Positions 1-43,361 of a stretch of DNA of 64,000 nt are shown one piece after another (position 1 is the stretch's first letter; every line of letters begins with the position of its first letter). The notes under the pieces were generated by a model that did not search any database, had not been told where the DNA came from, and worked only from the letters and a program-made list of their open reading frames with translations. The position numbers and the translations under genes are program-made. The stretch comes from Methylorubrum aminovorans (GTDB lineage: Bacteria; Pseudomonadota; Alphaproteobacteria; Rhizobiales; Beijerinckiaceae): contig NZ_BPRC01000004.1 of the NCBI RefSeq assembly GCF_022179725.1, forward strand, positions 62,001 through 126,000, written 5' to 3'.

Positions 1-316
1 GAAGGGTTTCACAAGCATCTCCGTAAGTGTCGGGCGCATTTGCCGGGACTGATCCTGATCTCGGATCGATCTCTCTGCGACACTGCTGCCATCTAGTGCG
101 CCGACGCGCCGCCTCTATGACGGCCACATGACGCTGACATGACAGACCTCAACGAGGCGGATTTTCATCGAGGATGGCACCGCTTGGAGCGCTTCGGCGT
201 TATCCGTTCAGGTGCATGCGGGCGCCGCCTTGCGAGAACGATCCCGGCGGGATCGGTCCCCGTGAGAACCGGGACAGCGGCGGACCTGCACGAGAGAAAT
301 CGAGGAGACCGTCAGC
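1..316. other. no gene recognised at the left edge
   Basis: This stretch holds no coding region I can support. A plus-strand reading frame is open from base 1 to the TAG at 94-96 and could be the tail of a gene that starts outside the window, but its 31 residues show no recognisable motif. The SD-like GAGGAG at 302-307 belongs to the next gene. Confidence 0.4.
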
Positions 317-592
317 GTGACGGAGCCGCATTCAACGCGCGAGAAGGAAATCCTGCTCGATCCGGCCGATCCTCAGGAGGCGGCGTATCTGGCGCTCCAC
401 GCCGAGCGGGCGGCGCTCGAGGAAGAACTGACCCGTCAGCAACAGCTTCAGCGCTTCGGCAGCGACGAGCATGGCATCGCCTCGGCACGGGCGACGGAAT
501 CATCTCTTCTGAAGGATCTCGACCGTGTGCTCACTCTGATTCGCGCCGCCGAAATCCGACGCCAACAGCCGATCGCCCGACGCTGGCAATAA
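317..592 (+). CDS. small hypothetical protein, 91 aa, charged helical
   Basis: The start is GTG at 317, chosen because GAGGAG at 302-307 sits 9 nt upstream. The protein is hydrophilic, with no signal peptide or membrane segment. Residues about 20-80 are rich in Glu, Arg, Leu and Ala and should be helical, perhaps coiled coil (AERAALEEELTRQQQLQRFG). I do not recognise the family. It faces the convergent small gene at 638-844. Other small proteins of unknown function follow over the next 2 kb, suggesting a lineage-specific accessory stretch. The SD spacing and typical codon use favour a real gene. Confidence 0.55.
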   Translation: MTEPHSTREKEILLDPADPQEAAYLALHAERAALEEELTRQQQLQRFGSDEHGIASARATESSLLKDLDRVLTLIRAAEIRRQQPIARRWQ

Positions 593-637
593 TCCAGGCC
601 GAAAACAGGACTTTCCTCCGCCTTGAGCCGAGGACGG

Positions 638-844
638 TCAGGCGCTGCGGCGGCGATCGCGCTCCTTCTGGCGAAGCCGCAGCAACAGCTGGACCTGCGC
701 ATCCGTGATGGGCTGCGCGTCGCAGCGCTCGACATACACGTCGCGCAGTCCCTGCCCGATCCGGTCACGGCTCTCGCCGTTCAGCGCGGGCATGGCGGCG
801 TCGATGAGCGATCCAGCGGGGTAGTCCGTCACGAGTTGTGCCAT
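638..844 (-). CDS. small hypothetical protein, 68 aa
   Basis: The product begins MAQLVTDYPAGSLIDAAMPA, continues with an amphipathic middle section and ends in a very basic tail (RLRQKERDRRRSA). The ATG at 844 is preferred; a TTG at 889 would add 15 residues but has no SD sequence. The ATG itself also lacks a clear SD, so the start is uncertain. There is no signal peptide or TM segment and I do not recognise the family. It converges with the gene at 317-592, 45 nt away, with no obvious terminator between them. Confidence 0.45.
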   Translation of the reverse strand: MAQLVTDYPAGSLIDAAMPALNGESRDRIGQGLRDVYVERCDAQPITDAQVQLLLRLRQKERDRRRSA

Positions 845-1125
845 GAACCGACGAGGCCAAATCTGAAGGAACCGTATCGCAACTGGCAAGGAGGAGCGAT
901 GGTGGCTCAGATTGAAGGAGGATGGTTAACAAAGACTTAGCGCGAACGGATGACTTTGACGTTCGGTGATGGCCAGCTCGGCCGCCCGCGCAGGACCTTG
1001 GCAGGCGAATTCCTTCGCTCCTCGTCTCACCCGGACGCGTGCGCAAGACCGCGACAGCCGGGGCGGGCACGGCGCGGACCGCAGAAAAATTCTTCTGCCG
1101 AGCAGCCGCCGCAGAGATGTTCTTT

Positions 1126-1139
1126 GTGCGCTAGCGCAC
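1126..1139. promoter_or_regulatory. 14-bp perfect palindrome, possible operator
   Basis: GTGCGCTAGCGCAC is a perfect 14-bp palindrome in non-coding DNA. A second weaker inverted repeat, GCAGAA-N6-TTCTGC (1081-1098), lies about 30 bp to its left. The symmetry suits a dimeric regulator, but no gene start lies immediately next to it, so function is inferred only. Confidence 0.25.
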
Positions 1140-1323
1140 CTGAGCGACGCGGTATTCTTTCGCTGCGGATCCGTATCAAGCCGGAAGATCGAACCGCCGA
1201 AGGGTTTTAGCCACTTCAGCACGCCCGGATGAACGTCCCGGCACTCGGGATGAGCGCACCCGCCGACGCCGTTTGCTTCAATGTCGTTGGGCTGCCCGCC
1301 CCCAATGCGGTACGCAGGCGACA

Positions 1324-1358
1324 GACGGGCCGGCCTTTCTCAGGAAAGCCGGCCCGTC
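1324..1358. terminator. strong GC hairpin, probable terminator of the 57-aa gene
   Basis: GACGGGCCGGC (1324-1334) pairs with GCCGGCCCGTC (1348-1358), and inside it TTTC pairs with GAAA around a 4-nt loop with one bulged C. It lies 50 nt past the stop codon of the minus-strand gene at 1410-1583. There is no T tract on either strand, so Rho independence is uncertain. Confidence 0.5.
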
Positions 1359-1409
1359 ACGCGCCTTCCAACTCACGAACCCGCGCTCACGGCGGCGCTC
1401 GGCGGCGGA

Positions 1410-1583
1410 TCAGGGCTCCGGCTTGTCGCGTTCACCCTCAGCTTTGTCCCCCTGACCCTGTTTCGCGCCGCCGTTCGGATCGGTGCTGTCCTCGCCCGAA
1501 GCCGTGCCGCTGCTATGGCCCTGGGGCGTCAGGCGCGGTCGGTCCGGGGCTTCGACTTCGTCGGGCTTTCTCGTCTCGGCCAT
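1410..1583 (-). CDS. 57-aa very hydrophilic protein
   Basis: This short gene has an excellent start: ATG at 1583 preceded by GGAGGT with 6-nt spacing. The product starts MAETRKPDEVEAPDRPRLTP, has almost no hydrophobic residues, is rich in Asp, Glu, Gly, Pro and Lys, and ends GERDKPEP. It is probably an intrinsically disordered cytoplasmic protein. No family is recognised. It stands alone on the minus strand with a hairpin downstream. The imperfect sequence AACC-N17-GTTCG at 1604-1629, read on the minus strand, resembles an EcfG promoter with one mismatch in the -35 element, so stress induction is possible but weakly supported. Confidence 0.6.
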   Translation of the reverse strand: MAETRKPDEVEAPDRPRLTPQGHSSGTASGEDSTDPNGGAKQGQGDKAEGERDKPEP

Positions 1584-1684
1584 GAGGCACCTCCGGCCTG
1601 GTCAACCGGGCAGGGGCCGCGAGGGTTCGCAAGTGAACGCTCGTGAGCGCGGCTCGGCCGGCATCCGCTCGATCGGATAGCGAT

Positions 1685-1936
1685 CTAGCGAAAGCGCGCG
1701 CCGATCGTCTCGTCCGTCCGCCACAGGGTGCAGCATACCTTGAGGGGATCGAGAGGCGAGGAGGTCAGCATGAACACGTCGGGAATGAGCGAGGTGTCCG
1801 GAACGGTAATCTCGATATCCTGCGCCGAGATGCCGTGCACCCAGCAACCGATCGAGGTGTGTTCATCCACCGCGATCAAGCCGGCCCCACCGGCTATCTG
1901 TGCTTGGTCGAACCGGAATCCTGAATGATCGGACAT
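1685..1936 (-). CDS. PilZ-like small protein, 83 aa
   Basis: The ATG at 1936 is preferred to an upstream in-frame start because GAGGA lies 7 nt before it. The C-terminal half, about residues 40-83, reads like the final strands of a PilZ domain: a turn (VPDTSLIPDVFMLTSSP), a strand carrying KVCCTLWRTDETIGARFR, and the closing W-R-x5-IGxRF pattern common in short alphaproteobacterial PilZ proteins. The N-terminal c-di-GMP-binding RxxxR motif is not evident, so ligand binding may be lost and the assignment rests on the C-terminal pattern. It appears monocistronic. Confidence 0.55.
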   Translation of the reverse strand: MSDHSGFRFDQAQIAGGAGLIAVDEHTSIGCWVHGISAQDIEITVPDTSLIPDVFMLTSSPLDPLKVCCTLWRTDETIGARFR

Positions 1937-2101
1937 CGATGTCCTCGCGTGAGCACCGAAGCGTGGCCTGCACAGACGAAGATGCCGTTGAGCCGGCATT
2001 TAAATTTCGAACGATCGGCCAATGAAGTGTCAGCGGCCCGCGACGCGAACGGAATACGGACGTGTTTCCGGCCCGATCCGGCGGAGTGCGTCACGCCTTG
2101 C

Positions 2102-2464
2102 TCACCTCAGGAACCAGACGACAAACCCAACGGTCACGGCAGCGGCTGCGATCACTCCATAATAGGCGGGCATGACCCACCGATTGGCGCCGTGTCCCGT
2201 CTGCATCCTGGCGGCCCTCCGGCGACGCGGCCGGGTTTCTTCCTCTCGCGCCAGAGAAACACGGGACGCGTCCGAGGGCATGCCGGCCGCCTCGTCATCG
2301 GTGCCGAGCGGCGACAGGCCGGGATCCTGAGCGGGGATCTTGTCGCCGGTCCGGCCGGCATCGATCTCGGCCTTCAACTGCGCAGTCGTCGGCCGCCCGG
2401 AAGAGGGCGGTGCCTCCGGCACACGATCAGCGGGCGGGGGCGGTGTCTCGGAACGGAGTGCCAT
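2102..2464 (-). CDS. hypothetical protein with C-terminal membrane anchor, 120 aa
   Basis: The first 90 residues are Pro-rich and charged (SETPPPPADRVPEAPPSSGR, then an Arg cluster RPRRRRAAR). One hydrophobic segment at about residues 98-118 (YYGVIAAAAVTVGFVVWFL) lies at the extreme C terminus, so the protein should be tail-anchored in the inner membrane with a disordered cytoplasmic domain. The ATG at 2464 follows the previous reading frame closely, as in an operon with the secreted-protein gene upstream. The function is not recognised. Confidence 0.6.
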   Translation of the reverse strand: MALRSETPPPPADRVPEAPPSSGRPTTAQLKAEIDAGRTGDKIPAQDPGLSPLGTDDEAAGMPSDASRVSLAREEETRPRRRRAARMQTGHGANRWVMPAYYGVIAAAAVTVGFVVWFLR

Positions 2465-2537
2465 CGATCAGACGCCTCGCTTGCTCTCGACTTCGCAGCT
2501 CGCGCCGTCCGTCACGACGATGCGCGCGTTCGGGATC

Positions 2538-2828
2538 TCATTGAGCGCCGGCGCCGCCGCTTCCTCCGCCGCCGCTGCCCTGCGGGACCGCTCGCTCGGG
2601 TTGGTTCGCGTTGCCGCCGGCCGCGGAATTTCTGTTGATGCTGCTGGCCCCGGTCGCTCCACGCGAGATCGTTTGGCTGCGGCCGCGTCCGCCGGTCACG
2701 CTGCCGTCGTTCGTGACGATGCTGCGGCTCTTGTGACGCGAGCGGGCATCGGCGGGACTGGCCGTGAGGGGCACGAGGCACGCGGCGGCGAATCCGGCCG
2801 CGCTTGCGAACGTCAGAAAGGTCTTCAT
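2538..2828 (-). CDS. secreted Gly/Ser-rich small protein, possible frameshift at its 3' end
   Basis: The start is ATG at 2828 with GGGGTG upstream. Residues 1-33 form a signal peptide (MKTFLTFASAAGFAAACLVP, cleavage near SPADA-R). The mature part is basic, then Gly/Ser-rich, and ends GGGGSGGAGAQ. Beyond this stop another frame stays open to 2468 and reads ALNEIPNARIVVTDGASC, which looks like real protein, and its stop lies 3 nt before the ATG of the next gene. The intact gene may therefore span 2468-2828 and be frameshifted in the GC-rich run near 2540-2590. Function unknown. Confidence 0.55.
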   Translation of the reverse strand: MKTFLTFASAAGFAAACLVPLTASPADARSRHKSRSIVTNDGSVTGGRGRSQTISRGATGASSINRNSAAGGNANQPERAVPQGSGGGGSGGAGAQ

Positions 2829-3033
2829 AGGGCACCCCGAGGGTTGATCCACGGGGAAACCCGGCGCTGCGCTTTTGTATCCAATCGCCGGCCCTGCGTG
2901 CTCAATGTCACCGTGCATGCGTATCGGCCGGAGGAAACGGTTGTCCCGGTGTCGGATTTACGCTCCGGCGTCGCCCGAGATCGCGGTGGGCGCCGCGTCA
3001 TTCGACAGCCCCGACCGCGAACACGGCCGCGCA

Positions 3034-3912
3034 ATGACCGAGAACCGCCTGACGCTTGATCGCCTTCGGCAATCGCCTCTTCCGGTGCCGGAGGAGGGCA
3101 GCAAGGAGCAACGCGGCACCGTCCTTGTGGCCGGTGGGTCCGTCGAGGTCCCGGGCGCCGTTCTCCTGGCCGGCGTCGCCGCACTCCGTGCCGGAGCCGG
3201 ACGCCTGCGGATCGCGACGATCGCGAGCAGCGCGGCGATCATGGCCCTCGCCGTGCCCGAGGCACGGGTCATCGGGCTGGCTGAGACGGAGGAGGGCTCG
3301 ATCGATCCGGCGGGGGCGCAAACCCGACTGCCGGCCATGGCCGAACGCTGCCAGTCGGTGCTGGTCGGGCCGGGCCTGAGCGCCGGCAAGGCCGCGGAGG
3401 CTCTCTCCCATGCCTTTCTGGCAGCCGAGGCGAAAGCGGCGCTGGTGCTCGATGCAGGGGTGATCGCCGGTCTCGGCCGGCAGGCCGAGGCGGTTCGATC
3501 CTGCCGCGGTCGCGCGGTGCTCACACCGCATGCCGGCGAGATGGCCCAACTTCTCGATATGGAGCGCGGGGCCGTCGAGGCGGACCCTCTGGCAGCGGCT
3601 CGCCGCGCTGCCGACCTTCTCGGATGCGTCGTGATCATGAAGGGCGCAAAGAGCTGGATCGTCGATCCCGGCGGAGCGGCGTGGCTCTATGACGGCGGCG
3701 GCGTGGGGCTCGCCACCTCCGGCTCGGGCGATGTTCTATCCGGCATCATCGCCGGCCTTCTCGCACGGGGCGCCGAGGCGATGAGAGCGGCTCTCTGGGG
3801 CGTCTACCTGCATGGGCAGGCGGGGCGGCGGCTCGCCGAGCGGGTGGGGCCGGTCGGGTTCCTGGCGCGGGAGATCGCCGACGAGGTTCCTGCGATCCTG
3901 CGCGAGGTTTGA
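3034..3912 (+). CDS. nnrD: ADP-dependent NAD(P)H-hydrate dehydratase, stand-alone
   Basis: It repairs the hydrated cofactors NADHX and NADPHX by dehydrating the S form using ADP. The 292-residue product matches the C-terminal kinase-like domain of the YjeF family: GTVLVAGGSVEVPGAVLLAG near the N terminus, LTPHAGEMAQLL in the middle and the nucleotide-binding, catalytic TSGSGDVLSGIIAGLLARG near residue 230. The NnrE epimerase domain that is often fused in front is absent, so the epimerase must be encoded elsewhere. ATG at 3034 is chosen, but its SD is weak and GTG at 2986 is an alternative. Confidence 0.88.
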   Translation: MTENRLTLDRLRQSPLPVPEEGSKEQRGTVLVAGGSVEVPGAVLLAGVAALRAGAGRLRIATIASSAAIMALAVPEARVIGLAETEEGSIDPAGAQTRLPAMAERCQSVLVGPGLSAGKAAEALSHAFLAAEAKAALVLDAGVIAGLGRQAEAVRSCRGRAVLTPHAGEMAQLLDMERGAVEADPLAAARRAADLLGCVVIMKGAKSWIVDPGGAAWLYDGGGVGLATSGSGDVLSGIIAGLLARGAEAMRAALWGVYLHGQAGRRLAERVGPVGFLAREIADEVPAILREV

Positions 3913-3943
3913 GGCCGGCCCTCCTATAAGAGTTGCGAGGCCG

Positions 3944-3969
3944 GGAACAGGACCGTAAGCGCGAGGGTT
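3944..3969 (+). promoter_or_regulatory. candidate EcfG-type general-stress promoter
   Basis: GGAAC (3944-3948), 17 nt, then GGTT (3966-3969). Alphaproteobacterial EcfG promoters are GGAAC-N16/17-CGTT, so only the first base of the -10 differs. It lies 31 nt before the ATG of the zinc-ribbon gene at 4000. Confidence 0.35.
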
Positions 3970-3999
3970 CTGCCCTACCTCACATCCGGGAGGGCGATC

Positions 4000-4167
4000 A
4001 TGACGCAGGCGGAGCCAACGAAACCCGGCGACGATGCGCCGCCCGGCACGCCCGGCACAGGCGAGAACCTGTGCCCCCGGTGCGGGGGCAGCGGTCGCCT
4101 GGAAGCCGAAAGCTGCCCGGACTGCAAAGGCACCGGCAAGGTCGTCTCCGGAATCGGCGGCGGCTAA
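4000..4167 (+). CDS. 55-aa zinc-ribbon protein (DnaJ-type CxxCxGxG pair)
   Basis: The ATG at 4000 follows GGGAGGG at a good distance. After a disordered Pro/Gly/Asp-rich lead (about residues 1-23), the protein has CPRCGGSG and, 9 residues on, CPDCKGTGKV: two CxxCxGxG half-sites that together can bind one zinc ion, as in the DnaJ cysteine-rich domain. No J domain or other partner domain is present. It may be a mini-chaperone adaptor or a redox/metal-responsive protein; the role is unknown. The gene lies 87 nt after nnrD and has its own candidate stress promoter. Confidence 0.7.
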   Translation: MTQAEPTKPGDDAPPGTPGTGENLCPRCGGSGRLEAESCPDCKGTGKVVSGIGGG

Positions 4168-4543
4168 CGCTCCGCTGTCGAGGCCGGCCGACCACGTTAT
4201 CGAGTCCGTCGCCGCCTTCTGCAGAAGGTCGACCATCACGGTCGAGGACGGCGCGCCTCGAACCGCTTCGCGGTGGCTGCCTCCGCTCCTCATCAGCACG
4301 GTCGGACAACAGCCCGGACGCACCTCGCGTCAGCAGGGGCCGCGCCGAAGCGCGGTAAGGCAATTTTCGTCGAATCGTCGCCGCGAAATAGGCTCACTCC
4401 CCGCCCCGTTCTATGATAGAACGAAAATAGAACGAGCAGGCAGCCGTTCTCCGGCGAGCACGAGCGTGGCCACGGCGTTCCGTCCGAGCGCCCGTCGCAA
4501 GCGTGTATGACGGCCGACCCGGCCTTGGTGAGGGAGAACGCGG
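4168..4543. other. 376-nt gap holding an SOS box
   Basis: No gene is seen. The notable content is the short inverted repeat CGTTCTA-N3-TAGAACG (4407-4423) and the perfect LexA-type site overlapping it (4419-4433). The rest shows nothing recognisable. Confidence 0.5.
4419..4433. promoter_or_regulatory. SOS box (predicted LexA operator)
   Basis: GAACGAAAATAGAAC is a perfect GAAC-N7-GAAC (GTTC-N7-GTTC on the other strand), the LexA operator of alphaproteobacteria and the same form as the box in front of lexA in this window. It lies 111 nt before the GTG of the small gene at 4544. A third half-site in opposite orientation (CGTTCTA, 4407-4413) makes a 7-bp inverted repeat with it. Confidence 0.6.
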
Positions 4544-4798
4544 GTGACGATGCGAACGACCTATCTCGTGCAAACCTTCGTGCTGAAGCGCAAACGGCTG
4601 TGTCCGGGCGATCAGCAGGTGTCGCCGACAGTGAGCGGTGCACTGAAGCGGGCCGAGGCGATGGCGGCGCGGCTGCCGGGTACGGCCGCCATCCAGATCG
4701 TCGCCGACGACGAGACGGGCGAGTTGGAAAGCGCGACGATTCTCGGCCGGTTCGGCGACGTGCCCGATGATTTTGCCGAGACGCTGCAGGCCGCCTGA
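4544..4798 (+). CDS. 84-aa hypothetical protein, possibly SOS-controlled
   Basis: GTG at 4544 is chosen because GGAG lies 7 nt upstream; ATG at 4550 would be 13 nt away. The product is a compact alpha/beta protein without signal or TM segment: a first strand RTTYLVQTFVLKRKRL, a helix SGALKRAEAMAARLPG, then AIQIVADDETGELESATIL, ending acidic. I do not recognise the family. It leads a cluster of three small same-strand genes (gaps of 26 and 28 nt) and is the first gene downstream of the SOS box at 4419-4433, so induction by DNA damage is a testable inference. Confidence 0.7.
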   Translation: MTMRTTYLVQTFVLKRKRLCPGDQQVSPTVSGALKRAEAMAARLPGTAAIQIVADDETGELESATILGRFGDVPDDFAETLQAA

Positions 4799-4824
4799 CG
4801 AGAGGATTTAGGAAAGAGGATCAC

Positions 4825-5100
4825 ATGGCCTTCAAGCCGAAATCGGCCGCGGAGACGAAAGCCCGCGATCTGGGCCTGGCGCTGGCGCGCATCGCCGAGA
4901 GCGAAGGCATGCCGGCCCATGTCGGCGTGGATGCCCTGCGCCGAGCCAGCCCGCGCCTGACGCCGCTGGCCATTGGGCAGATGGTGCGAAAGCACCGCGA
5001 CATCATCGAAGAGACGCTGACCGAGCGCGGGCTGACGCTGATCGATTATGCCGATCAGGGGCCGGGACGCGGGATGGAATTCACGGTCGCCGACGCTTGA
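4825..5100 (+). CDS. 91-aa hypothetical protein
   Basis: The start is ATG at 4825 preceded by GAGGA at suitable spacing. The product is soluble and mostly helical: AETKARDLGLALARIAESEG, then VGVDALRRASPRLTPLAIGQ, HRDIIEETLTERGLTLIDYA and a short tail. The arrangement of short helices could suit a small DNA-binding or adaptor protein, but no HTH pattern is clear and I claim no function. It is the second gene of the cluster 4544-5371, with 26 nt between it and the gene before. Confidence 0.7.
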   Translation: MAFKPKSAAETKARDLGLALARIAESEGMPAHVGVDALRRASPRLTPLAIGQMVRKHRDIIEETLTERGLTLIDYADQGPGRGMEFTVADA

Positions 5101-5128
5101 GCGCGCGGCAGTTCCGGAAAAGCCCGCC

Positions 5129-5371
5129 ATGGAAGCCGTGCGCCGGGTCGGCGCCTACCTTCAGGTCCAGGACGGTGACGGCTGCCGCCATCTGCTACGC
5201 GTCTCCAGCGTGCAGGCGGTCAGCGACACCGATCTCATGCGGAACGAGACCTTCATCACCGCGGCCGGCCGGACGATCCGCGTACCGCAGCCGCTCGACG
5301 AGATCGTGCCGCTGATCTCACCGGGTGAACGGCTGCCGGTCGAGGCGGACGCGGAGCCTTGGCCGTTCTGA
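5129..5371 (+). CDS. 80-aa hypothetical protein, beta-rich
   Basis: ATG at 5129 has GGAAAA upstream. The protein alternates strands and turns (VGAYLQVQDGDGCRHLLRVS, then SSVQAVSDTDLMRNETFITA, GRTIRVPQPLDEIVPLI) and ends EPWPF, so a small barrel or sandwich is likely. It has no signal peptide. As third gene of the 4544-5371 cluster it is probably co-transcribed with the previous two. The family is not recognised; similar small beta proteins often bind peptide or nucleic acid, but nothing here proves that. Confidence 0.65.
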   Translation: MEAVRRVGAYLQVQDGDGCRHLLRVSSVQAVSDTDLMRNETFITAAGRTIRVPQPLDEIVPLISPGERLPVEADAEPWPF

Positions 5372-5522
5372 ACCCATCCGCGGCCTCGAACCTCGGCGAC
5401 GTCATTCGGCCCGCTCCCGTCCGTCCGGAAAGAGTCGGTTGCCGCAAAGGCGACGACCATCTCAGGAACGATCACCGCATGCGAATCTTGTCTCGGCACG
5501 TCGAGAGCCTGAGGAGAGCCGC

Positions 5523-5897
5523 GTGGACGATGATCGTGTCTGGTCGTTCGAGAAAAGCCTCTGGACCGGAGGGTCTGACCATTATCGGGAATTGGTCGAT
5601 GACGAGTGCCTGATGGCACTGCCGCAGCCGCCCTACGTTTTCAGCGGCACGCAAGCGATCGAAGCGGTCTCGGACACACCCCGCTGGTCGGATGTCGAGA
5701 TCGAGGACGGTCGGATCGCACGCCCTCAAGAGGGCCTCATCGTCATCGCCTACACGGTGAAGGCCAAACGCAGCGAGGAGACCTACGAGGCGCACTGCAC
5801 CTCGACCTATCGCCGGCTCTCACATGAGGAGTGGCGGGTGGTGCAACATCAGCAGACTCCGCGCATCCTCGCCCCTGTGGTCGATGAGGCGCACTGA
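5523..5897 (+). CDS. NTF2-like (DUF4440-type) protein, 124 aa
   Basis: GTG at 5523 is chosen because GAGGAGA lies 6-8 nt upstream. The sequence fits the cone-shaped NTF2/SnoaL-like fold: an N-terminal helix (FEKSLWTGGSDHYRELV), DDECLMALPQPPYVFSG, a second helix, and strands including EEGLIVIAYTVKA-type residues, YEAHCTSTYRRL and EEWRVVQHQQTP. DUF4440 members are often small enzymes or scaffold proteins with unknown ligands, so no reaction can be assigned. It is separate from the preceding cluster by 151 nt. Confidence 0.7.
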   Translation: MDDDRVWSFEKSLWTGGSDHYRELVDDECLMALPQPPYVFSGTQAIEAVSDTPRWSDVEIEDGRIARPQEGLIVIAYTVKAKRSEETYEAHCTSTYRRLSHEEWRVVQHQQTPRILAPVVDEAH

Positions 5898-6117
5898 CGG
5901 ACCTGTCGCGTGCAATGCGGCAACCATCGATGGCGGCCGGTATCCGCTCGGACGCCGGTCCGCCTCGGACTGCAGCCCATCAGAGAGCTGGCATCGCCAA
6001 CAGCACCGAATGCATGGATTTCGCGGAGAGAACCGAGCGACGCCCGACCGCGACAACGATCGGATCAACGTCAGACGAGGCGCGAAGATCGCTGCCATCT
6101 CAACGATTTAGGAGATT
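5898..6117. other. gap before tRNA-Asn, nothing recognised
   Basis: No gene or clear regulatory element is seen. Weak plus-strand frames entering the tRNA are translations of the antisense of tRNA-Asn and are spurious. Confidence 0.4.
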
Positions 6118-6193
6118 TGGCTCCCCGAGCAGGACTCGAACCTGCGACAAAGCGATTAACAGTCGCTTGCTCTACCAACTGAGCTATCGGGGA
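6118..6193 (-). tRNA. tRNA-Asn (GTT), CCA encoded
   Basis: Read on the minus strand the gene starts TCCCCGATAGCTCAG and ends with the matching acceptor arm TCGGGGA followed by G and an encoded CCA (76 nt). The anticodon loop is CTGTTAA with anticodon GTT, and the T arm contains GGTTCGAGTCC. All four arms pair without mismatch in the acceptor stem. Confidence 0.97.
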
Positions 6194-6438
6194 TCACCGG
6201 GCCGCCTTGGCGGCGCTGGCGGGTCATTAGCCTTGGTCGGAGGCGGGCGCAAGGGTCCTTTCGGCGCTTTTTGCGTCTTGTGAGCCGGCGAGGCGCTTTT
6301 TCCACCGTGTCGCGGTCGAAGGGCGGCCATTCGATCGATCACGCGATAAGACCGTTGCCGAGCGGGCCGAGCCTCTGCTAGAGACGCCTCGCTCCGGAGC
6401 GGCCGCTCGGCCCGGAGCGTCGCGCATCGACGCGGCGA

Positions 6439-6512
6439 GGCCTCGTGGCGGAGTGGTTACGCAGAGGACTGCAAATCCTTGCACCCCGGTTCGATTCCGG
6501 GCGAGGCCTCCA
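6439..6512 (+). tRNA. tRNA-Cys (GCA), CCA encoded
   Basis: GGCCTCG (6439-6445) pairs with CGAGGCC (6502-6508), followed by T and CCA. The anticodon loop CTGCAAA carries GCA, and the T arm contains GGTTCGATTCC. The gene is 74 nt and divergent from tRNA-Asn 245 nt away. Confidence 0.97.
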
Positions 6513-6696
6513 AAATTCTCAGTCGTCAAGAATTCTCGGTCGTCCTGACAATCGGCTCGTGCCCTGCGGTGCAGAGCGCCCGCGCAAGCCTTGCAATTCC
6601 AGGAACGATCCACGACAACCCGACCCGCTCGAACCGGCGCCGCTCGACGGGCGAGCAAGCGAAGCGTCCGACGCAGCGGCAGGGAATGGACGGCTC

Positions 6697-7347
6697 ATGC
6701 TCGATTATGCCCAGGCGCGGCGCCTCATGGTCGATTGTCAGCTCCGGACCTTCGACGTGAACGACGTCGCAGTGCTCGACGCCTTCGACTCCGTGCCCCG
6801 TGAGCGCTTCGTCCCGCCGGGCCGCGAGGATTTCGCCTATATCGACCAGACCCTCACCTTCGACGCGGGCGAGGACGGCGTCCGCAGCATGCCGGCCCCG
6901 ATGGTGCTGGCCCGCATGATCCAGGCTCTTAAGATCCGCCCCGGCACCCGCGCCCTCGATGTCGGCACCGGCTATGGCTACGGCGCGGCGATTCTCGCCC
7001 GCCTCGGCGCCGAAGTCGTCGCTCTCGAATCCGCCGCCGATCTCGCCGGCGCCGCCCGTGAGCGCCTCGGCGAGTGCGCCGATCTGGTCCAGGGTGCCCT
7101 GACCGCCCCGGTCAAGGGCGGGCCGTTCGATGCGATCCTGGTCGAGGGCCGCGTCGAGGTCCGGCCGCAGGCCCTGCTCGACCAACTGGCCGATGACGGC
7201 CGCCTCGTCTGCGTGCTCGGTCCTCACCGGAACGCCAAGGCGACCCTGTTCGTGCGGGCCGGTGACGCCTTCGGGTCGCGCGCGCTGTTCGACGCGTCGC
7301 TGCCCGCCCTCAAAAGCTTCGCGACCGAGCCCGGCTTCGCATTCTGA
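6697..7347 (+). CDS. protein-L-isoaspartate O-methyltransferase-like SAM methyltransferase
   Basis: This 216-residue protein has the PIMT layout: an N-terminal helical cap (MLDYAQARRLMVDCQLRTFD, PRERFVPPG), a substrate loop and a Rossmann methyltransferase fold with motif I at about residues 88-100 (ALDVGTGYGYGAAILARLG) followed by VVALE. In classical Pcm the loop before motif I reads GQTISQP; here it is RSMPAPMV, so isoaspartate repair activity is doubtful. Genes of this type sit directly upstream of tolC in many alphaproteobacteria, as here, and may modify another target. ATG at 6697 is supported by AGGGAA. Confidence 0.8.
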   Translation: MLDYAQARRLMVDCQLRTFDVNDVAVLDAFDSVPRERFVPPGREDFAYIDQTLTFDAGEDGVRSMPAPMVLARMIQALKIRPGTRALDVGTGYGYGAAILARLGAEVVALESAADLAGAARERLGECADLVQGALTAPVKGGPFDAILVEGRVEVRPQALLDQLADDGRLVCVLGPHRNAKATLFVRAGDAFGSRALFDASLPALKSFATEPGFAF

Positions 7348-7774
7348 GCCGGAGCGTCTCGCGCCTGCCGAGCCGCTGCAGATCGGGCGATTCGTACCCG
7401 AAACGCCCCTTACGCATGCCATCGCGAAACGCCCGGCCGCGCGCCGCGGCGAGGGGCCGGCTTGCGCCCCCGCGCATCTCTGTTGGCGATGAGGGATTAA
7501 GCCCGCGGAGGTGTCGCTTTTTTGAGGCACCCGACGCCAATCCGACGCCGCGCTGCGGGAATCTCTGTCGCTGACCGCTCAAGCTCGGCTACTCTGTCGC
7601 ACGAGGCGGGCTGACCCTTCCAACGCACGGGCGTGCATGCGGCACCCCTGTCGCGACCCTCACGGAAAGGGCTGCCCCGCAGATGTCCGGAAGGACAGAT
7701 GCGGCGGCGGCGGACCGGGCGGGCACGGCGGTGCGACGGTACGGTAAATCGAGAAACCGCAAGGGCTGATCGAC
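7348..7774. other. 427-nt gap before tolC
   Basis: Both strands contain only weak, compositionally biased frames. The region presumably carries the tolC promoter, but no confident element is visible. Confidence 0.4.
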
Positions 7775-9172
7775 GTGAAAGAACGCAACCCTGCGGCGCG
7801 GTCCGCGCTCCGGCTGGCTGGTGCCGTTGCATCGGTACTGGTCGTGGCCTGTCCGGCCGCCGCTGAGACCCTTGAGAGCGCGCTGTCGCGCGCCTACCAG
7901 GCGAACCCGGCGCTGAACGCGGCGCGGGCGAACCTGCGGGCGACCGATGAGGATGTGAACCGGTTCCAGGCCGGCTACCGGCCCAACGCGGCGATCTCCG
8001 CCGATATCGGCGTTCAGCAATTCCAGGGTTCGGTCTCCGGCGTGCAGATCAACGGCCGCCGCGGACTGACCGTGCCCGGCGGCGCCGGCCTGACGGTGAA
8101 CCAGAACCTGTTCGACGGCTTTCAGACGGACAACCGGGTCCGGGCGGCCGAATCGACCGTGCTCGGGACGCGCGAGGGCCTGCGCCAGACCGAGATGAAC
8201 ACGCTGTTCAACGCGGCCCAGGCCTACATGAACGTTCTGAGCGACACGGCGACGCTCGAACTGCAGCGCAACAACGTCGAGGTGCTCGAGGAGCAGCTCC
8301 GCCAGACCCGCGACCGCTTCAACGTCGGCGAGGTGACCCGCACCGACGTCGCCCAGGCCGAGGCGCGCCTCGCCGGCGCGCGCTCGCAGGTCAGCGCAGC
8401 GGAGGCGGCGCTCCGCGCCTCGATCGGCATCTTCCGTCAGATCATCGGCGTCGAGCCGCGCCAGCTCGCGCCCGGCCGACCGCTCGACCGCTACGTGCCC
8501 GGCTCGCTCGATCAGGCGATCCTGATCGGTCTGAAGGAGCACCCGCAGATCCTGTCCTCGCTGCACGCCGTCGACGTGGCAGAGCTGCAGGTGAAGGTGG
8601 CCGAGGGTGCCCTCTACCCGCAGGCACAGGTCACCGGCGCTGTGCAGCAGCGTTACGATCAGCAATTCCCCGGCGACAACGGCGTCACCGCCTCGATCGT
8701 CGGCCGGGTGAACATCCCGCTCTATCAGGGCGGCGGCGAGTACGCGGCGATCCGGCAGGCCAAGGAGAATGTCGGGCGCGCCCGTCTCATCGCCGATCAG
8801 GATCGCGACACCATCCGCGCCTCGATCGTGCGGACCTGGGGCAACCTCGAAGCCTCGAAGGCGCAGGTGATCGCCTCGCAGGCCCAGGTCCAGGCCAACG
8901 AGGTGGCGCTGAACGGCGTGCGCGAGGAGGCCCGCGTCGGCCAGCGCACCACCCTCGACGTGCTCAACGCGCAGCAGGAACTGCTCTCGGCCCGCGTCGC
9001 CCTGATCCGCGCGCAACGCGATCGCGTGGTCAATTCCTACGACGTGGTCCAGGCGGTCGGCCGTCTCACCGTGCGCTTCACCAGCCTGCCGGTCACCCCC
9101 TACAGCTCCCGCGAGCACCTCGATCAGGTTCGGGATCTCTGGTTCGGCGTGCGCACGCCCGACGGGCGCTGA
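7775..9172 (+). CDS. tolC: TolC-family outer-membrane efflux/secretion channel
   Basis: The 465-residue product carries a signal peptide (about residues 1-30, ending CPAAAE) and then the duplicated outer-membrane efflux protein repeats: ETLESALSRAYQANPALNAA, long coiled-coil helices with NVEVLEEQLRQTRDRFNVGE and, in the second half, EEARVGQRTTLDVLNAQQEL. The protein should trimerise into an outer-membrane beta barrel with a periplasmic tunnel and serve type I secretion and RND pumps made elsewhere. Length fits the family. The GTG at 7775 has a weak SD. popZ follows after 124 nt. Confidence 0.9.
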   Translation: MKERNPAARSALRLAGAVASVLVVACPAAAETLESALSRAYQANPALNAARANLRATDEDVNRFQAGYRPNAAISADIGVQQFQGSVSGVQINGRRGLTVPGGAGLTVNQNLFDGFQTDNRVRAAESTVLGTREGLRQTEMNTLFNAAQAYMNVLSDTATLELQRNNVEVLEEQLRQTRDRFNVGEVTRTDVAQAEARLAGARSQVSAAEAALRASIGIFRQIIGVEPRQLAPGRPLDRYVPGSLDQAILIGLKEHPQILSSLHAVDVAELQVKVAEGALYPQAQVTGAVQQRYDQQFPGDNGVTASIVGRVNIPLYQGGGEYAAIRQAKENVGRARLIADQDRDTIRASIVRTWGNLEASKAQVIASQAQVQANEVALNGVREEARVGQRTTLDVLNAQQELLSARVALIRAQRDRVVNSYDVVQAVGRLTVRFTSLPVTPYSSREHLDQVRDLWFGVRTPDGR

Positions 9173-9296
9173 CGGACGCGTGCGGGCGGCGTTTTCCTGT
9201 TGGCCGGCGGCGGACCAAGGTTGATGCCGGGTGAGGCGATGAAATAGTTCGTTAACCTCATCGTCGTCTTGTCAATCGTCACCGAGTATCGTCCCG

Positions 9297-9902
9297 ATGA
9301 GCGCAGCGAGCCCTAAGGTTCAGGACAAGACGCAGGAACCCTCCATGGAGGAGATCCTGGCTTCGATCCGCCGCATCATCGCCGACGATCAGGCCCCGAA
9401 GCCGGCCGAAGTCGAGCCGGCGCCGCCCCCGCGGGCTCCGCCGCCGCCGGAAGAGGACGATGTGCTCGACCTTGCCGAGGTCGCCGAGCCGCTGCGCAAG
9501 CCCGAGCCGAAGCCCGATCCCATGGGCTTCGATATCCCCGAGATCGATTTCCGGATGCCGGACTTCGGGCCGGAACCCGAGCCCGTTTTCGAGGCCTCCA
9601 AGCCGGATCCCTTCGACTTCGAGCCCGAGCCCGTCCCCGCTCCGAAAGTGAGCGAGCGGATCCGCGCGGCGGTCGAGGAGGAAGCGACGGAGCGGCTGGT
9701 CTCGTCGCGCACGGTCGAGAGCGTCGGACAGAACTTCCAGCTCCTGGCTCAGACGGTGCTGTCGCAGAACGCCCGCACGCTGGAGGATCTCGTGCAGGAG
9801 ATGCTGCGGCCGATGCTGAAGAGCTGGCTCGACGACAACCTTCCGCTGATGGTCGAGCGGCTGGTGCGCGTCGAGATCGAACGGGTCGCCCGCGGACGCT
9901 GA
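9297..9902 (+). CDS. popZ: polar organizing protein PopZ (DUF2497)
   Basis: PopZ self-assembles at cell poles and anchors the ParB-parS centromere complex. The 201-residue product has the diagnostic order: an N-terminal helix SMEEILASIRRIIADD (residues 16-31), a long acidic Pro-rich linker (PEPEPVFEASKPDPFDFEPE), and a C-terminal oligomerisation region with LEDLVQEMLRPMLKSWLDD and LMVERLVRVEIERVARG. The position just upstream of valS is conserved in Rhizobiales. The linker probably tunes condensate fluidity. ATG at 9297. Confidence 0.9.
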   Translation: MSAASPKVQDKTQEPSMEEILASIRRIIADDQAPKPAEVEPAPPPRAPPPPEEDDVLDLAEVAEPLRKPEPKPDPMGFDIPEIDFRMPDFGPEPEPVFEASKPDPFDFEPEPVPAPKVSERIRAAVEEEATERLVSSRTVESVGQNFQLLAQTVLSQNARTLEDLVQEMLRPMLKSWLDDNLPLMVERLVRVEIERVARGR

Positions 9903-10034
9903 CCTCTCCACGGCCGCTGGCGGAGCGGACGAACCCCGGCCGAAACGGGCCGACGGTTGACGGCGGCACCGTGGCGGGCCGATAGCGACGGCGACATTGT
10001 TTCCAGAACGCCGTCTCGAAAAGCCCGCCCGCCC

Positions 10035-12755
10035 ATGATGGACAAGACCTTCGACCCCGCCGCCGTCGAGGCGCGCGTCTCCACGGCCTGGGAAGAGGGC
10101 CAGGCCTTCCGCGCCGGCCGTCCCGAGCGGGCCGGCGCCGAGCCCTTCAGCATCGTGATCCCGCCGCCGAACGTGACGGGCTCGCTGCATATGGGCCACG
10201 CCCTCAACAACACGATCCAGGACATCGTCGTCCGCTTCGAGCGGATGCGGGGGCGCGACGTGCTGTGGCAGCCGGGCACGGATCACGCCGGCATCGCCAC
10301 GCAGATGGTGGTCGAGCGGCGGCTGGCAGAAACGCAGCAGCCCGGTCGACGCGAACTCGGCCGCGAAGAGTTCCTGCGCCGGGTCTGGGCCTGGAAGGAG
10401 GAGTCGGGCGGGACGATCATCGGCCAGCTCAAGCGGCTCGGCGCCTCCTGCGACTGGTCGCGCGAGCGCTTCACCATGGATGAGGGTTTGAGCCGCGCCG
10501 TGCTCAAGACCTTCGTCGACCTGCACGCGCAGGGGCTGATCTACCGCGACAAGCGCCTCGTGAACTGGGACCCGAAGTTCCAGACGGCGATCTCGGACCT
10601 CGAAGTCCAGCAGATCGAGGTGAAGGGCCATCTCTGGCACTTCGACTATCCGGTCGTGGACGAGGCTGGCGCCGAGACGGGCGCGGTCATCACGGTGGCC
10701 ACCACGCGCCCCGAGACGATGCTGGGCGACACGGCGGTCGCGGTCCATCCGGACGATGAGCGCTACCGTGACCTCGTGGGGAAACGCGTTCGGCTGCCGC
10801 TGGTCAATCGGCTGATCCCGATCGTCGCCGACGCGTATTCCGATCCGGAGAAGGGGACGGGTGCGGTCAAGATCACCCCGGCCCACGATTTCAACGACTT
10901 CGAGGTCGGGCGCCGCGCCGGGTGCCGGCCGATCAACGTGCTCGATGCCGAGGCGCGGATCCAGATCGCCGGCAATGCCGACTTCCTGGAAGGCGCCGCC
11001 CCGGAGGCTGCCGCGCTGGCGCTCGACGGCCTCGACCGGTTTGAGGCCCGCAAAACGGTCGTTGCCCTGATGGAGGAGCGCGGCCTGCTGCGTGCGGTCG
11101 AGCCGAACACCCACGCGGTGCCGCACGGCGACCGCTCGGGCGCGGTGATCGAGCCCTACCTGACTGATCAGTGGTACGTGAACGTCAAGCCGCTGGCCGA
11201 GCGCGCGCTCCAGGCGGTGCGCGACGGCAAGACCCGCTTCGTGCCGGACAACTACGAAAAGATCTTCTTCCAGTGGCTGGAGAACATCGAGCCGTGGTGC
11301 GTCTCGCGCCAGCTCTGGTGGGGCCACCAGATCCCGGTCTGGTACGATGCGGAGGGTGGCATCTTCGTCGCCGAAAGCGAGGCGGAGGCGCTCGCGCAGG
11401 CCAAGGCCAAGCACGGCCGTGAGGTCGCGCTGACCCGCGACCCCGACGTGCTCGACACGTGGTTCTCCTCCGCGCTCTGGCCGTTCTCGACGCTCGGCTG
11501 GCCGGACAAGACACCGGATCTGGCCCGCTTCTACCCCACCAACACCCTGGTGACGGGCAAGGACATCATCTTCTTCTGGGTTGCCCGGATGATGATGATG
11601 GGCCTGCACCTCACCGATCAGGCGCCGTTCGACACCGTCTACCTGCACACCCTCGTCCGCGACGAGAAGGGTGCGAAGATGTCGAAGTCGAAGGGCAACG
11701 TGGTCGATCCGGTCGATCTGATCGACCGTTTCGGCGCGGATGCCCTGCGCTTCACGCTCGCCGCGCTTGCCGCCCCCGGCCGCGACATCAAGCTCGGTCC
11801 CCAGCGGGTCGAGAGCTACCGCAACTTCGCGACCAAGCTCTGGAACGCGGCGCGCTTTGCTGAGATGAACGGCTGCGCGCTCAAGGCCGATTTCCGACCC
11901 GAAACGGTCAAGGAGACGCTCAACGCCTGGGCGCTCACCGAGGCCGCCAAGGCCGTGGCGGAGGTGGCGCAGGGCATCACGGTCTACCGCTTCAACGATG
12001 CGGCGGCCGCCGCCTACCGCTTCGTCTGGAACGTGTTCTGCGACTGGTATCTCGAACTCGCCAAGCCAGTGCTCCAGGGCGAGGGCGTCGATCCGGCGGC
12101 GCGGGCCGAGACGCAAGCCACGGTCGCCTTCCTGATCGACCAGATCGCCAAGCTGCTGCACCCGTTCATGCCCTTCCTCACGGAGGAGCTGTGGGCAATC
12201 AAGGGCGAGGCGCTGCCGACCCAGCGCGGCCTGCTCGCGCTCGAATCCTGGCCGGAGCTGTCGGCCTATCAGAACGCGCAGGCCGAGGCCGAGATCGGCT
12301 GGCTCGTCGATCTGATCTCCGAGATCCGCTCGGCCCGCTCCGAGACCAACGTGCCCGCCGGCGCCCAGATTCCGCTCGTGCTGGTCGGTGCCGACGAGAG
12401 CGTCCGCGCCCGGGTCGAGCGCTGGAGCGAGACCCTGACCCGGCTTGCCCGGCTCTCCGAGATCGGCTTCGCCGAGGCCGCACCGAAGAACGCGGTCCAG
12501 CTCCTCGTGCGCGGCAGCGTGGCGGCCCTTCCGTTGGAGGGCATCGTCGATCTCGCGGCCGAGGTCGCACGCCTGAAGAAGGAGGCGGGCAAGGCACGGA
12601 CGGAGATCGGCAAGATCGAGGGCAAGCTCGGCAATGCCGACTTCCTCGCCCGCGCCCCGGAAGAGGTGGTGGACGAGCAGCGCGAGCGCCGCGACGCGGA
12701 AGCCGCCCGGCTCGCCAAGATCGAGGAAGCCCTGGCCCGCCTCAGCGACGCATGA
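10035..12755 (+). CDS. valS: valyl-tRNA synthetase
   Basis: It charges tRNA-Val and edits mischarged threonine. The 906-residue class I enzyme shows the HIGH-type motif in PPPNVTGSLHMGHALNN (about residues 44-60), the CP1 editing domain with TVATTRPETMLGDTAVAVHP, KMSKSKGNVVDPVD near residue 548, the anticodon-binding helical domain and a C-terminal coiled-coil arm (EVARLKKEAGKARTEIGKIE). Length is normal for the short bacterial form. ATG at 10035 is chosen; a second ATG follows at once. Its stop overlaps the start of the next gene (ATGA). Confidence 0.95.
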   Translation: MMDKTFDPAAVEARVSTAWEEGQAFRAGRPERAGAEPFSIVIPPPNVTGSLHMGHALNNTIQDIVVRFERMRGRDVLWQPGTDHAGIATQMVVERRLAETQQPGRRELGREEFLRRVWAWKEESGGTIIGQLKRLGASCDWSRERFTMDEGLSRAVLKTFVDLHAQGLIYRDKRLVNWDPKFQTAISDLEVQQIEVKGHLWHFDYPVVDEAGAETGAVITVATTRPETMLGDTAVAVHPDDERYRDLVGKRVRLPLVNRLIPIVADAYSDPEKGTGAVKITPAHDFNDFEVGRRAGCRPINVLDAEARIQIAGNADFLEGAAPEAAALALDGLDRFEARKTVVALMEERGLLRAVEPNTHAVPHGDRSGAVIEPYLTDQWYVNVKPLAERALQAVRDGKTRFVPDNYEKIFFQWLENIEPWCVSRQLWWGHQIPVWYDAEGGIFVAESEAEALAQAKAKHGREVALTRDPDVLDTWFSSALWPFSTLGWPDKTPDLARFYPTNTLVTGKDIIFFWVARMMMMGLHLTDQAPFDTVYLHTLVRDEKGAKMSKSKGNVVDPVDLIDRFGADALRFTLAALAAPGRDIKLGPQRVESYRNFATKLWNAARFAEMNGCALKADFRPETVKETLNAWALTEAAKAVAEVAQGITVYRFNDAAAAAYRFVWNVFCDWYLELAKPVLQGEGVDPAARAETQATVAFLIDQIAKLLHPFMPFLTEELWAIKGEALPTQRGLLALESWPELSAYQNAQAEAEIGWLVDLISEIRSARSETNVPAGAQIPLVLVGADESVRARVERWSETLTRLARLSEIGFAEAAPKNAVQLLVRGSVAALPLEGIVDLAAEVARLKKEAGKARTEIGKIEGKLGNADFLARAPEEVVDEQRERRDAEAARLAKIEEALARLSDA

Positions 12756-23970: not shown

Positions 23971-24009
23971 GAACAGGAGAGGAACGTCTAGGCTGTTCGT
24001 GCTTTGTTT
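23971..24009. promoter_or_regulatory. lexA promoter region with SOS boxes
   Basis: GAACAGGAGAGGAAC (23971-23985) is a perfect GAAC-N7-GAAC box. A second, degenerate site GTTC-N7-GTTT lies at 23995-24009. The pair starts 86 nt before the lexA ATG and implies autoregulation. Confidence 0.8.
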
Positions 24010-24056: not shown

Positions 24057-24782
24057 ATGCTGACCCGCAAGCAACTCGAACTGCTCCAGTTCATCCAGCA
24101 GAGGATGCAGGAGAGCGGCGTGCCGCCGTCCTTCGACGAAATGAAGGACGCGCTCGATCTCAAATCCAAGTCCGGCATTCACCGCCTGATCATGGCGCTG
24201 GAGGAGCGCGGCTTCCTGCGTCGTCTGCCGAACCGGGCCCGGGCCATCGAGATCCTGCGCATGCCCGACATGCCGGCCGCCAAGCCGGCAACGGCCCCCG
24301 AGCCGCGCCGCTTCACCCCGAGCGTGGTCGAGGGTGGTTTGTCGGGCAAGCCGCCCGCACCGAAGCCGCCGATGCTGCAGGCCCATGACGGCAACGGCCA
24401 GTCGGTGATGGTGCCGGTGATGGGCCGGATCGCCGCCGGTACGCCGATCTCGGCGATCGAGAGCCAGAGCCACTCGATCTCGATGTCCCCCGATTTCCTC
24501 TCGGGCGGCGAGCACTACGCGCTGGAAGTGCGCGGTGATTCGATGATCGAGGCCGGCATCCTCGACGGTGATCTCGTGGTGATCCACAAGCAGGATACCG
24601 CCAATAACGGCGACATCATCGTGGCGCTGATCGACGACGAGGAGGCGACTCTCAAGCGCCTGCGCCGCCGCGGCTCCTCGATCGCGCTCGAAGCCGCCAA
24701 CCCGTCCTACGAAACCCGCGTGCTCGGGCCCGACCGGGTGCGCATCCAGGGCAAGCTCGTCAGCCTCGTACGCCGCTATTGA
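24057..24782 (+). CDS. lexA: LexA SOS repressor
   Basis: LexA represses DNA-damage genes and cleaves itself when RecA filaments form. The 241-residue product has the winged-HTH N terminus ([52 protein letters not shown]), a long linker, and the S24 peptidase fold: cleavage site Ala127-Gly128 in GRIAAGTP, catalytic Ser162 in [10 protein letters not shown] and Lys200 in ATLKRL. Its own SOS boxes lie upstream. The last 7 nt overlap the convergent comEC gene. ATG at 24057. Confidence 0.96.
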
Positions 24783-42596: not shown

Positions 42597-43361
42597 ATGG
42601 CAAGCGAGGGACGCCGTCCGCTGGTTGCCGGCAACTGGAAGATGAACGGTCTGCGATCCTCGGTGCCGATCGTCGAGGCGATCCGCGACGGGCTTTCGCC
42701 CGCGCTCACGGATAATATCGACGTTCTGATCTGCCCGCCCGCGACGCTGATCTCCTCCTGCGTGGCCGCCGTCTACGGCTCGCCCGTCGCCATCGGCGGC
42801 CAGAACCTGCATGCCCGTCCGAGCGGTGCCTTCACCGGCTCGATCTCCGCGGAGATGTTCGCCGATCTCGGCGCCACCTACGTCATCGTCGGCCATTCCG
42901 AGCGGCGCGCCTACCATTACGAGACCGATGACGGCGTCCACGCCAAGGCGCTCGGCGCCCGCCGCGCGGGCCTGCGCGGCATCATCTGCGTCGGCGAGAC
43001 CATGGAGGAGCGCCAGCAGGGCCGCGCCCTCGACATCGTGCGCGCGCAGCTCGCCATCGGCCTGCCGAAGGGTGCCACCGGCGAGGACACGGTGATCGCC
43101 TACGAGCCGGTCTGGGCCATCGGCTCGGGCCGCACGCCGACGGCGACGGAGATCGCCGAGGTCCACGCCTCCTTGCGCGAGATGCTCGACAAGCTCGTCG
43201 GCGAGGAGGCGCACAAGATCCGCATCCTCTACGGCGGCTCGGTGAAGCCCGCCAACGCCCGTGAATTGATGGCGGTGGAGAATGTCGACGGCGCCCTGGT
43301 CGGCGGCGCCAGCCTCGTGGCGGAGGACTTTCTGGGGATCTGCCGCGCCTACGAAGGGTGA
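42597..43361 (+). CDS. tpiA: triosephosphate isomerase
   Basis: It interconverts DHAP and glyceraldehyde-3-phosphate. The 254-residue TIM barrel has all catalytic residues: Asn13/Lys15 in VAGNWKMNG, His100 in VIVGHSERR, Glu170 in IAYEPVWAIG, and the phosphate loop RILYGGSVKPANA. ATG at 42597 with GGAGAA upstream. Its stop overlaps the GTG of the next gene. ppiD is transcribed divergently 238 nt away. Confidence 0.96.
   Translation: MASEGRRPLVAGNWKMNGLRSSVPIVEAIRDGLSPALTDNIDVLICPPATLISSCVAAVYGSPVAIGGQNLHARPSGAFTGSISAEMFADLGATYVIVGHSERRAYHYETDDGVHAKALGARRAGLRGIICVGETMEERQQGRALDIVRAQLAIGLPKGATGEDTVIAYEPVWAIGSGRTPTATEIAEVHASLREMLDKLVGEEAHKIRILYGGSVKPANARELMAVENVDGALVGGASLVAEDFLGICRAYEG

Follow-up and report, generated by a model that had tools for sequence, protein, structure and literature searches.

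Among the closest described counterparts of the locus considered here are small proteins encoded with umuD-type genes. In Acinetobacter, DdrR, a protein of 78-81 aa that is unique to this genus, is encoded divergently from umuDAb and is damage-induced (PMC7273328), and it is reported to help repress error-prone polymerase genes (PMC7273328; PMC11332147). ImpC is the product of a small extra gene of the plasmid umuDC-type operon impCAB, and is suggested to be an accessory protein (PMC7092418). Up-regulation of recA is recorded for M. extorquens under formaldehyde in passages that name none of the three proteins described below (PMC7916467), and the passages available from PMC3765255 do not mention Methylobacterium. 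A search of the open-licence PMC literature by title and start of abstract found no description of these three proteins or of a Methylobacterium LexA regulon.

The window, that is, the whole stretch of DNA analysed, comprises 64,000 nucleotides (C4:62001-126000) of the Methylobacterium/Methylorubrum genome G000, which totals 6.09 Mb in 120 contigs. Near its beginning lie three small genes, whose products are here called p84, p91, and p80 (Table 1). Because all three are on the plus strand and are separated by gaps of 26 bp (p84-p91) and 28 bp (p91-p80), they appear to be arranged as an operon. Two genes precede them in the same direction, one at 3034-3912, presumably of the NAD(P)HX dehydratase type, and one at 4000-4167, which encodes a 55-aa zinc-ribbon-like protein. 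The latter carries a CxxCxGxG motif and weakly matched the anti-TRAP protein RtpA (E 2.4e-6, 27.6 bits, cut-off 65) as well as the DnaJ zinc finger. A previous interpretation made from the letters of the window, hereafter the sequence-only reading, had described three unrecognised proteins behind a putative SOS box, and this description held: p84, p91, and p80 matched 0 families at E 1 in Pfam, NCBIfam, PHROGs, and PADLOC, libraries that do not cover all toxins. When all 89 p91 members of alignment A1 (89 of the 91 p91 rows, leaving out L125 and L009, which is identical to another row) were compared with Pfam, only weak scattered matches were obtained, the best at E 0.019; the full set of 26 p84 sequences in alignment A2, compared with NCBIfam, likewise gave only weak scattered matches, the best at E 0.034.

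Table 1. Positions of the operon, its predicted SOS box, and related features in the window.
Feature	Position	Strand	Remarks
Inverted repeat GTTCTATGATAGAAC overlapping the box	4408..4422	.	Not conserved
Predicted SOS (LexA) box, GAAC-N7-GAAC	4419..4433	+	GAACGAAAATAGAAC; kept in relatives
p84	4544..4798	+	84 aa; GTG start; no known family
p91	4825..5100	+	91 aa; nearly genus-confined; predicted winged helix
p80	5129..5371	+	80 aa; optional third gene; ATG at 5129 taken as start, mechanical ORF begins at 5048
p124	5523..5897	+	Follows the operon as a neighbour in the closest clade; found in 13/91 p91 loci
tRNA-Asn and tRNA-Cys	6118-6193 and 6439-6512		Close the conserved block
Box before lexA	23971..23985	+	GAAC-N7-GAAC; comparison copy
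lexA	24057..24782	+	LexA_DNA_bind 1.7e-16; Peptidase_S24 6.5e-33 (matches of 24057-24779)

A direct repeat of GAAC/GTTC with a spacing of N7 upstream of the first gene is the form that the LexA (SOS) box takes in Alphaproteobacteria. As the sequence-only reading had pointed out, the repeat before p84 has the same form as the one before lexA, a gene confirmed by both of its domains; both repeats are on the plus strand. By number, such repeats are unremarkable: the window holds 3 versus 1.64 expected, a count reached in 25 of 100 shuffles, and the third copy (43502-43516, minus strand), which lies within an ORF at 43358-43855, is probably there by chance. Because the genome contains 155 matches to the pattern versus 94 to a reversed control, little can be concluded from one perfect match by itself, and the counting of boxes in window or genome, uninformative alone, was set aside as an argument for a LexA site.

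It is conservation, not count, that makes the case for 4419-4433 as a candidate LexA site. The box is retained at all 11 of the closest p84 loci (window genome included), 89-139 bp 5' of p84. The genus has 111 p91 matches, of which 91 loci were read; a perfect box precedes p91 by no more than about 800 bp at 72 of these, and the reversed control pattern does so at 1. Relative to p91, boxes numbered 61 at -450 to -100 and 11 at -800 to -450 (90 loci), 0 in both bins between -1500 and -800 (88 loci), and 1 each at -100 to +280 and +280 to +700 (91 loci); the control gave 0 in every bin up to -100 and then 1 and 2, thus 3 overall. The 19 loci with no perfect box include L061, which has just 139 bp of upstream sequence. 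Across 73 aligned boxes, the preceding bases are TA (T in 88%, A in 93%) and the following base is A in 78%. The TA looks as if it could overlap a -10 element; a simple scan of 4200-6000 found no sigma-70-type promoter. The inverted repeat that overlaps the box occurs, among the 11 closest p84 loci, in L001 (the window genome) and L002 only and is probably incidental. A divergent gene as owner of the box was also considered and rejected: the minus-strand ORFs at 3998-4363 and 3736-4323, which run antisense to the gene of the 55-aa protein and to its predecessor, were taken as spurious. On this comparative evidence, the operon is very likely under LexA control.

Other genes of the SOS response carry the same motif in this genome. 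The sequence-only reading had reported imuAB and dnaE2 as absent, which is true of the window but not of the genome, since an imuA-imuB-dnaE2 cassette lies on the same contig about 140 kb from the operon (C4:206428), with its own box starting 55 bp before the imuA ORF. DnaE2 scored above its curated cut-off, ImuB did so via the IMS family, and ImuA was significant but below cut-off. The box also precedes ssb (C1:27268) and a umuD-umuC pair (C3:208799); at lexA, imuA, ssb, and umuD the motif may be read on either strand. Upstream of recA, at 77 bp, is a copy with one mismatch. An addB ORF is preceded by a box at about 53 bp, which marks addB as a possible boxed SOS gene. These genes were found by inspecting about 20 regions, selected for AT-rich boxes or for gene family, and other boxes in those regions adjoin genes with no SOS link known to us. 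A DUF6456 ORF (C3:96639, L256) and a DUF3072 ORF (C1:380001, L275) each have an AT-rich perfect box at the 5' end and are possibly further SOS genes. A second umuD-umuC pair, recognised by similarity, sits on a 5.8-kb contig (C66:1-5778, L270) in which no perfect box was found. In the window, positions 1-12000 contain no match to umuD or umuC.

Relatives of p84 are present in 106 of 111 genomes of the genus. We read 136 distinct loci, a part of the genus matches counted after one duplicate row was dropped, and these fell into 38 with p91, 43 with umuD and/or umuC and no p91 (some with only one of the two in the stretch read), and 55 with neither. L095, in which p91 lies 4.2 kb from p84, was counted with p91 in this tally and as solitary in the tree contrasts below. 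A box search upstream of orthologues of the 84-aa protein, proposed in the sequence-only reading, gave a divided picture: a box lies within 500 bp upstream of p84 at 35 of the 38 loci with p91, at 42 of the 43 linked to umu genes, and at 2 of the 55 others, with 0 control matches in all three groups. Accordingly, 77 of 81 loci that have p91 or umuD/umuC retain the box. The solitary copies are an internal control within the sequence comparison, belonging to the same family and having almost no boxes; even the two boxed exceptions hold other module parts nearby, namely a 76-aa umuD-side gene (L338) and p80 (L355). In a p84 tree, the well-supported branches provide 3 independent contrasts; almost every sampling gave the expected direction (on average for 2.9 of the 3), and the contrasts are too few for significance; all branches together provide 18 contrasts. 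The umu genes are transcribed away from p84, on the other strand, so that a single box region is common to the two. Identification of UmuD and UmuC was by Peptidase_S24 for one UmuD, by IMS for the UmuC of the window genome, and by tblastn similarity for the rest. In several umuDC loci (L023, L024, L030, L283, and others), a 76-aa protein, o76, with no Pfam match at E 0.01, is encoded between box and umuD. Among 397 genomes drawn from the order, p84 matches occur in 36, spread over 16 genera, and many are weak.

The second protein, p91, gave 111 matches, which come from 102 of the 111 genomes of the genus; 94 of those genomes have a single match, and the mean column identity is 79%. The gene before it is p84 at 36 of the 91 loci, a DUF6894 gene (PF21834) at 31, both at 6, and neither at 18. 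Box and partner go together: a box is present at 68 of 73 loci with p84 or DUF6894, including 30 of the 31 at which DUF6894 takes the place of p84, versus 4 of 18 partnerless loci, leaving 14 of the latter boxless (Fisher 2.6e-9, a value that counts related genomes with no correction for shared ancestry). We rejected the idea that p84 is a divergent DUF6894 protein, as the two have no profile similarity (hhalign probability 0.2%). At some p91 loci (e.g., L070, L119, L125, and L135) the p84 match is partial, perhaps representing decayed genes. Divergent umuDC occurs at 11 of the 91 p91 loci (L070, L087, L103, L107, L109, L120, L124, L125, L130, L135, and L140) and was not found at the other 80, the window's included, where the upstream stretch read was about 1.6 kb and at some loci shorter. 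Together with the many p84 relatives that are likewise divergent from umuDC, these 11 loci speak against the sequence-only view of the cluster as an orphan. p80 is present in 29 of 111 genus genomes.

On sequence searches, p91 is nearly confined to Methylobacterium/Methylorubrum. Of 397 genomes drawn from the order, with the first candidates per genome scored, 8 gave a match, 7 belonging to the genus and 1 being weak and stop-containing. When genome contigs were searched with two strict peptide patterns, 80 of 84 p91 loci were kept, all named Methylobacterium or Methylorubrum except two MAGs named Beijerinckiaceae; the 11 named loci with at least 84% identity comprise 8 Methylorubrum and 3 Methylobacterium sp. 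The box was present at 60 of these 80 loci versus 1 of 80 for the control, and 4 boxes occurred in 388,887 other bases; the 80 loci are mostly from the same species as the 91-locus set and are not an independent sample.

Structure prediction was applied to both proteins. The p91 model, built from 89 sequences, reached a pLDDT of 87.8 and a pTM of 0.77, and its elements (H8-27, E31-34, H35-41, H47-56, H58-67, E70-77, E84-90) follow the winged-helix order of helix-strand-helix-helix-strand-wing-strand. Foldseek returned no match at E 0.001, the best being E 0.065 (RepE, TFIID, and others). In the 50 VIA-align matches shown, Z ranged from 7.4 to 4.5, below the 8 that the tool calls safe, and may reflect just a common arrangement; at least 5 titles name a winged-helix domain. 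We take most of the other matches to be winged-helix domains too, many of them presumably from chromosome or replication complexes (MAGE/Nse3, kleisins, ScpA/ScpB, MCM, ORC, Wadjet), and a few, e.g., ALBA1, to be something else. On the model, p91 is likely a winged helix; its net charge is 0. For p84, modelled from 26 sequences, the best model had a pLDDT of 89.3 and the other four 74.1 to 54.7, and the predicted fold is beta-beta-alpha-beta-beta-alpha. A fold search with it found nothing at E 0.001 (best Z 5.1). Its first 43 residues are basic (+6) and the remainder is acidic (-8). A PDB sequence search with both profiles at E 1 gave one match for p91 (E 0.75) and none for p84.

Downstream of the operon, p124 is present as a neighbour at L001-L011, L061, and L131. 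In the window and in L359, the operon is followed by p124, by the two tRNA genes, and then by a gene presumably encoding an isoaspartate-methyltransferase-like protein. L356 and L357 have, after p124, a second unit of umuC-umuD, box, and p84, whose p84 lies 3.9 and 4.7 kb, respectively, from that of the operon; the unit in L357 also holds DUF6894. L358 has a umuDC-p84 unit about 14 kb downstream. Such units might perhaps be seated at the tRNA as an island site, but no tRNA was found in the stretches of L356-L358. A umuCD island of 8.2 kb, bordered on the right by a tRNA, is listed for M. extorquens DM4, and strains AM1 and DM4 are described as differing in their umuDC copies (PMC2680597); one might guess that this island occupies the same site as the L356 and L357 units. 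Plasmid records include 11 with p84-like and 2 with p91-like sequences. A phage origin of p84 or p91 was rejected, since neither matched any record of the phage collection at E 1e-5.

Taken together, the loci describe what appears, by gene order, to be an SOS module that recurs in Methylobacterium, umuC-umuD <- box -> [DUF6894 and/or p84] - p91 - (p80), with optional parts. Most genomes seem to keep only part of it at any one place, and the window has the p84-p91-p80 arm without umuDC. The segment 4419-5371 is probably a LexA-repressed operon, box-p84-p91-p80, forming one arm of a umuDC-linked SOS module that may act in translesion synthesis. The sequence-only suggestion of an unstudied LexA-controlled set survives in that relatives keeping the genes also keep the box (72 of 91 p91 loci), and it loses the orphan status and the genome-wide absence of imuAB and dnaE2. 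According to the proposed mechanism, LexA on 4419-4433 would block the promoter; DNA damage would activate RecA, LexA would cleave itself, repression would be lifted, and p84, p91, and p80 would be made together with SSB, ImuA/ImuB/DnaE2, and UmuDC. p84 or DUF6894 may be a small protein-binding partner, and p91 a winged helix binding DNA or a complex. Because p84 and DUF6894, accompanied by p91, repeatedly share a box with a neighbouring umuDC, the small proteins may influence translesion synthesis, either directly or through its regulation. This functional link is one of association, because 80 of 91 p91 loci show no umuDC, and the chances that the role of p84-p91-p80 is tied to translesion synthesis are about even. 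That the operon exerts negative regulation in the manner of DdrR or DinI is possible, if doubtful. A rather doubtful extension is an SOS layer of the genus' own, in which a complex of p91 with p84 or DUF6894 would tune the mutasome, acting on UmuD/UmuC or else on ImuB-DnaE2, as a modular counterpart of DinI, ImpC, and DdrR built from unrelated families. On the proposed reading, unannotated small proteins become candidates, open to experiment, for the SOS regulon of a bacterial genus with many species, and a recurring, exchangeable small-protein set beside umuDC gains a possible role in damage-induced mutagenesis.

Several other explanations were weighed against this module. The unremarkable count of the box would be compatible with a site for some other regulator, or with conservation by accident; this is highly improbable, as the same motif stands before lexA, imuA, ssb, and umuD and is strongly conserved in sequence and position. 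SOS regulons often hold small toxins and division inhibitors, e.g., SidA of Caulobacter, and the operon might likewise be an SOS-induced growth brake, either a toxin-antitoxin pair or a cell-division inhibitor. We consider this quite unlikely: p84 occurs with neither p91 nor umuDC at 55 of 136 loci, p91 occurs without p84 or DUF6894 at 18 of 91, and a DUF6894 protein of no detectable similarity can replace p84, unlike in a cognate pair, while the three proteins matched no family model, in libraries with incomplete toxin coverage. The genes could also be passengers that mobile umuDC islands carry along and that do nothing for the host by themselves, as might be read from the second umuDC-p84 unit that follows the operon in L356 and in L357, from the plasmid records (11 with p84-like and 2 with p91-like sequences), and from the tRNA-bordered umuCD island listed for M. 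extorquens DM4 (PMC2680597). However, p91 occurs in 102 of 111 genus genomes, once in 94 of them, and this spread and the 79% identity suggest selection for function; a mere passenger is very unlikely.

A further alternative is a secondary regulator. Here p91 would bind DNA, p84 or DUF6894 would resemble a corepressor, and the two would exert feedback on umuDC, imuABC, or their own promoter, as DdrR does with UmuDAb. The recurrence of small genes divergent from umuD and the predicted winged helix of p91 speak for it, as do the available accounts of the Acinetobacter-only DdrR (78-81 aa), encoded divergently from umuDAb (PMC7273328) and enhancing UmuDAb binding (PMC11332147). LexA, however, is present here, unlike in Acinetobacter, and p91 has a net charge of 0. 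Moreover, winged helices can also serve as protein-binding modules. We therefore regard a secondary regulator as unlikely and retain the LexA-repressed, umuDC-linked module as the preferred reading.

Compared with known systems, this module, judged by gene order and size only, resembles ddrR-umuDAb of Acinetobacter in having a small genus-restricted protein encoded divergently from a umuD-type gene. It differs in that Acinetobacter lacks LexA and uses UmuDAb whereas LexA is present here, in that two or three proteins are involved here, one of them a predicted winged helix, and in that umuDC stands beside p91 at just 11 of 91 loci. ImpC is likewise encoded by a small extra gene accompanying a umuDC-type operon (PMC7092418). 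By its description there, impC lies within the impCAB operon itself, whereas p84 is divergent from umuDC. ImpC is akin to DinI, for which the Pfam and NCBIfam libraries presumably hold a model; p84 matched 0 families of either at E 1. The imuA-imuB-dnaE2 cassette, present in the window genome with its own box, is similarly a mutagenesis operon under a LexA box; the window operon, in contrast, has no polymerase, and p84, p91, and p80 match none of the cassette's families. DUF6894 occupies p84's place between box and p91 but shares no profile similarity with it (hhalign 0.2%). Without proving kinship, the DdrR and ImpC parallels lend support, by analogy, to an accessory or regulatory role for these proteins.
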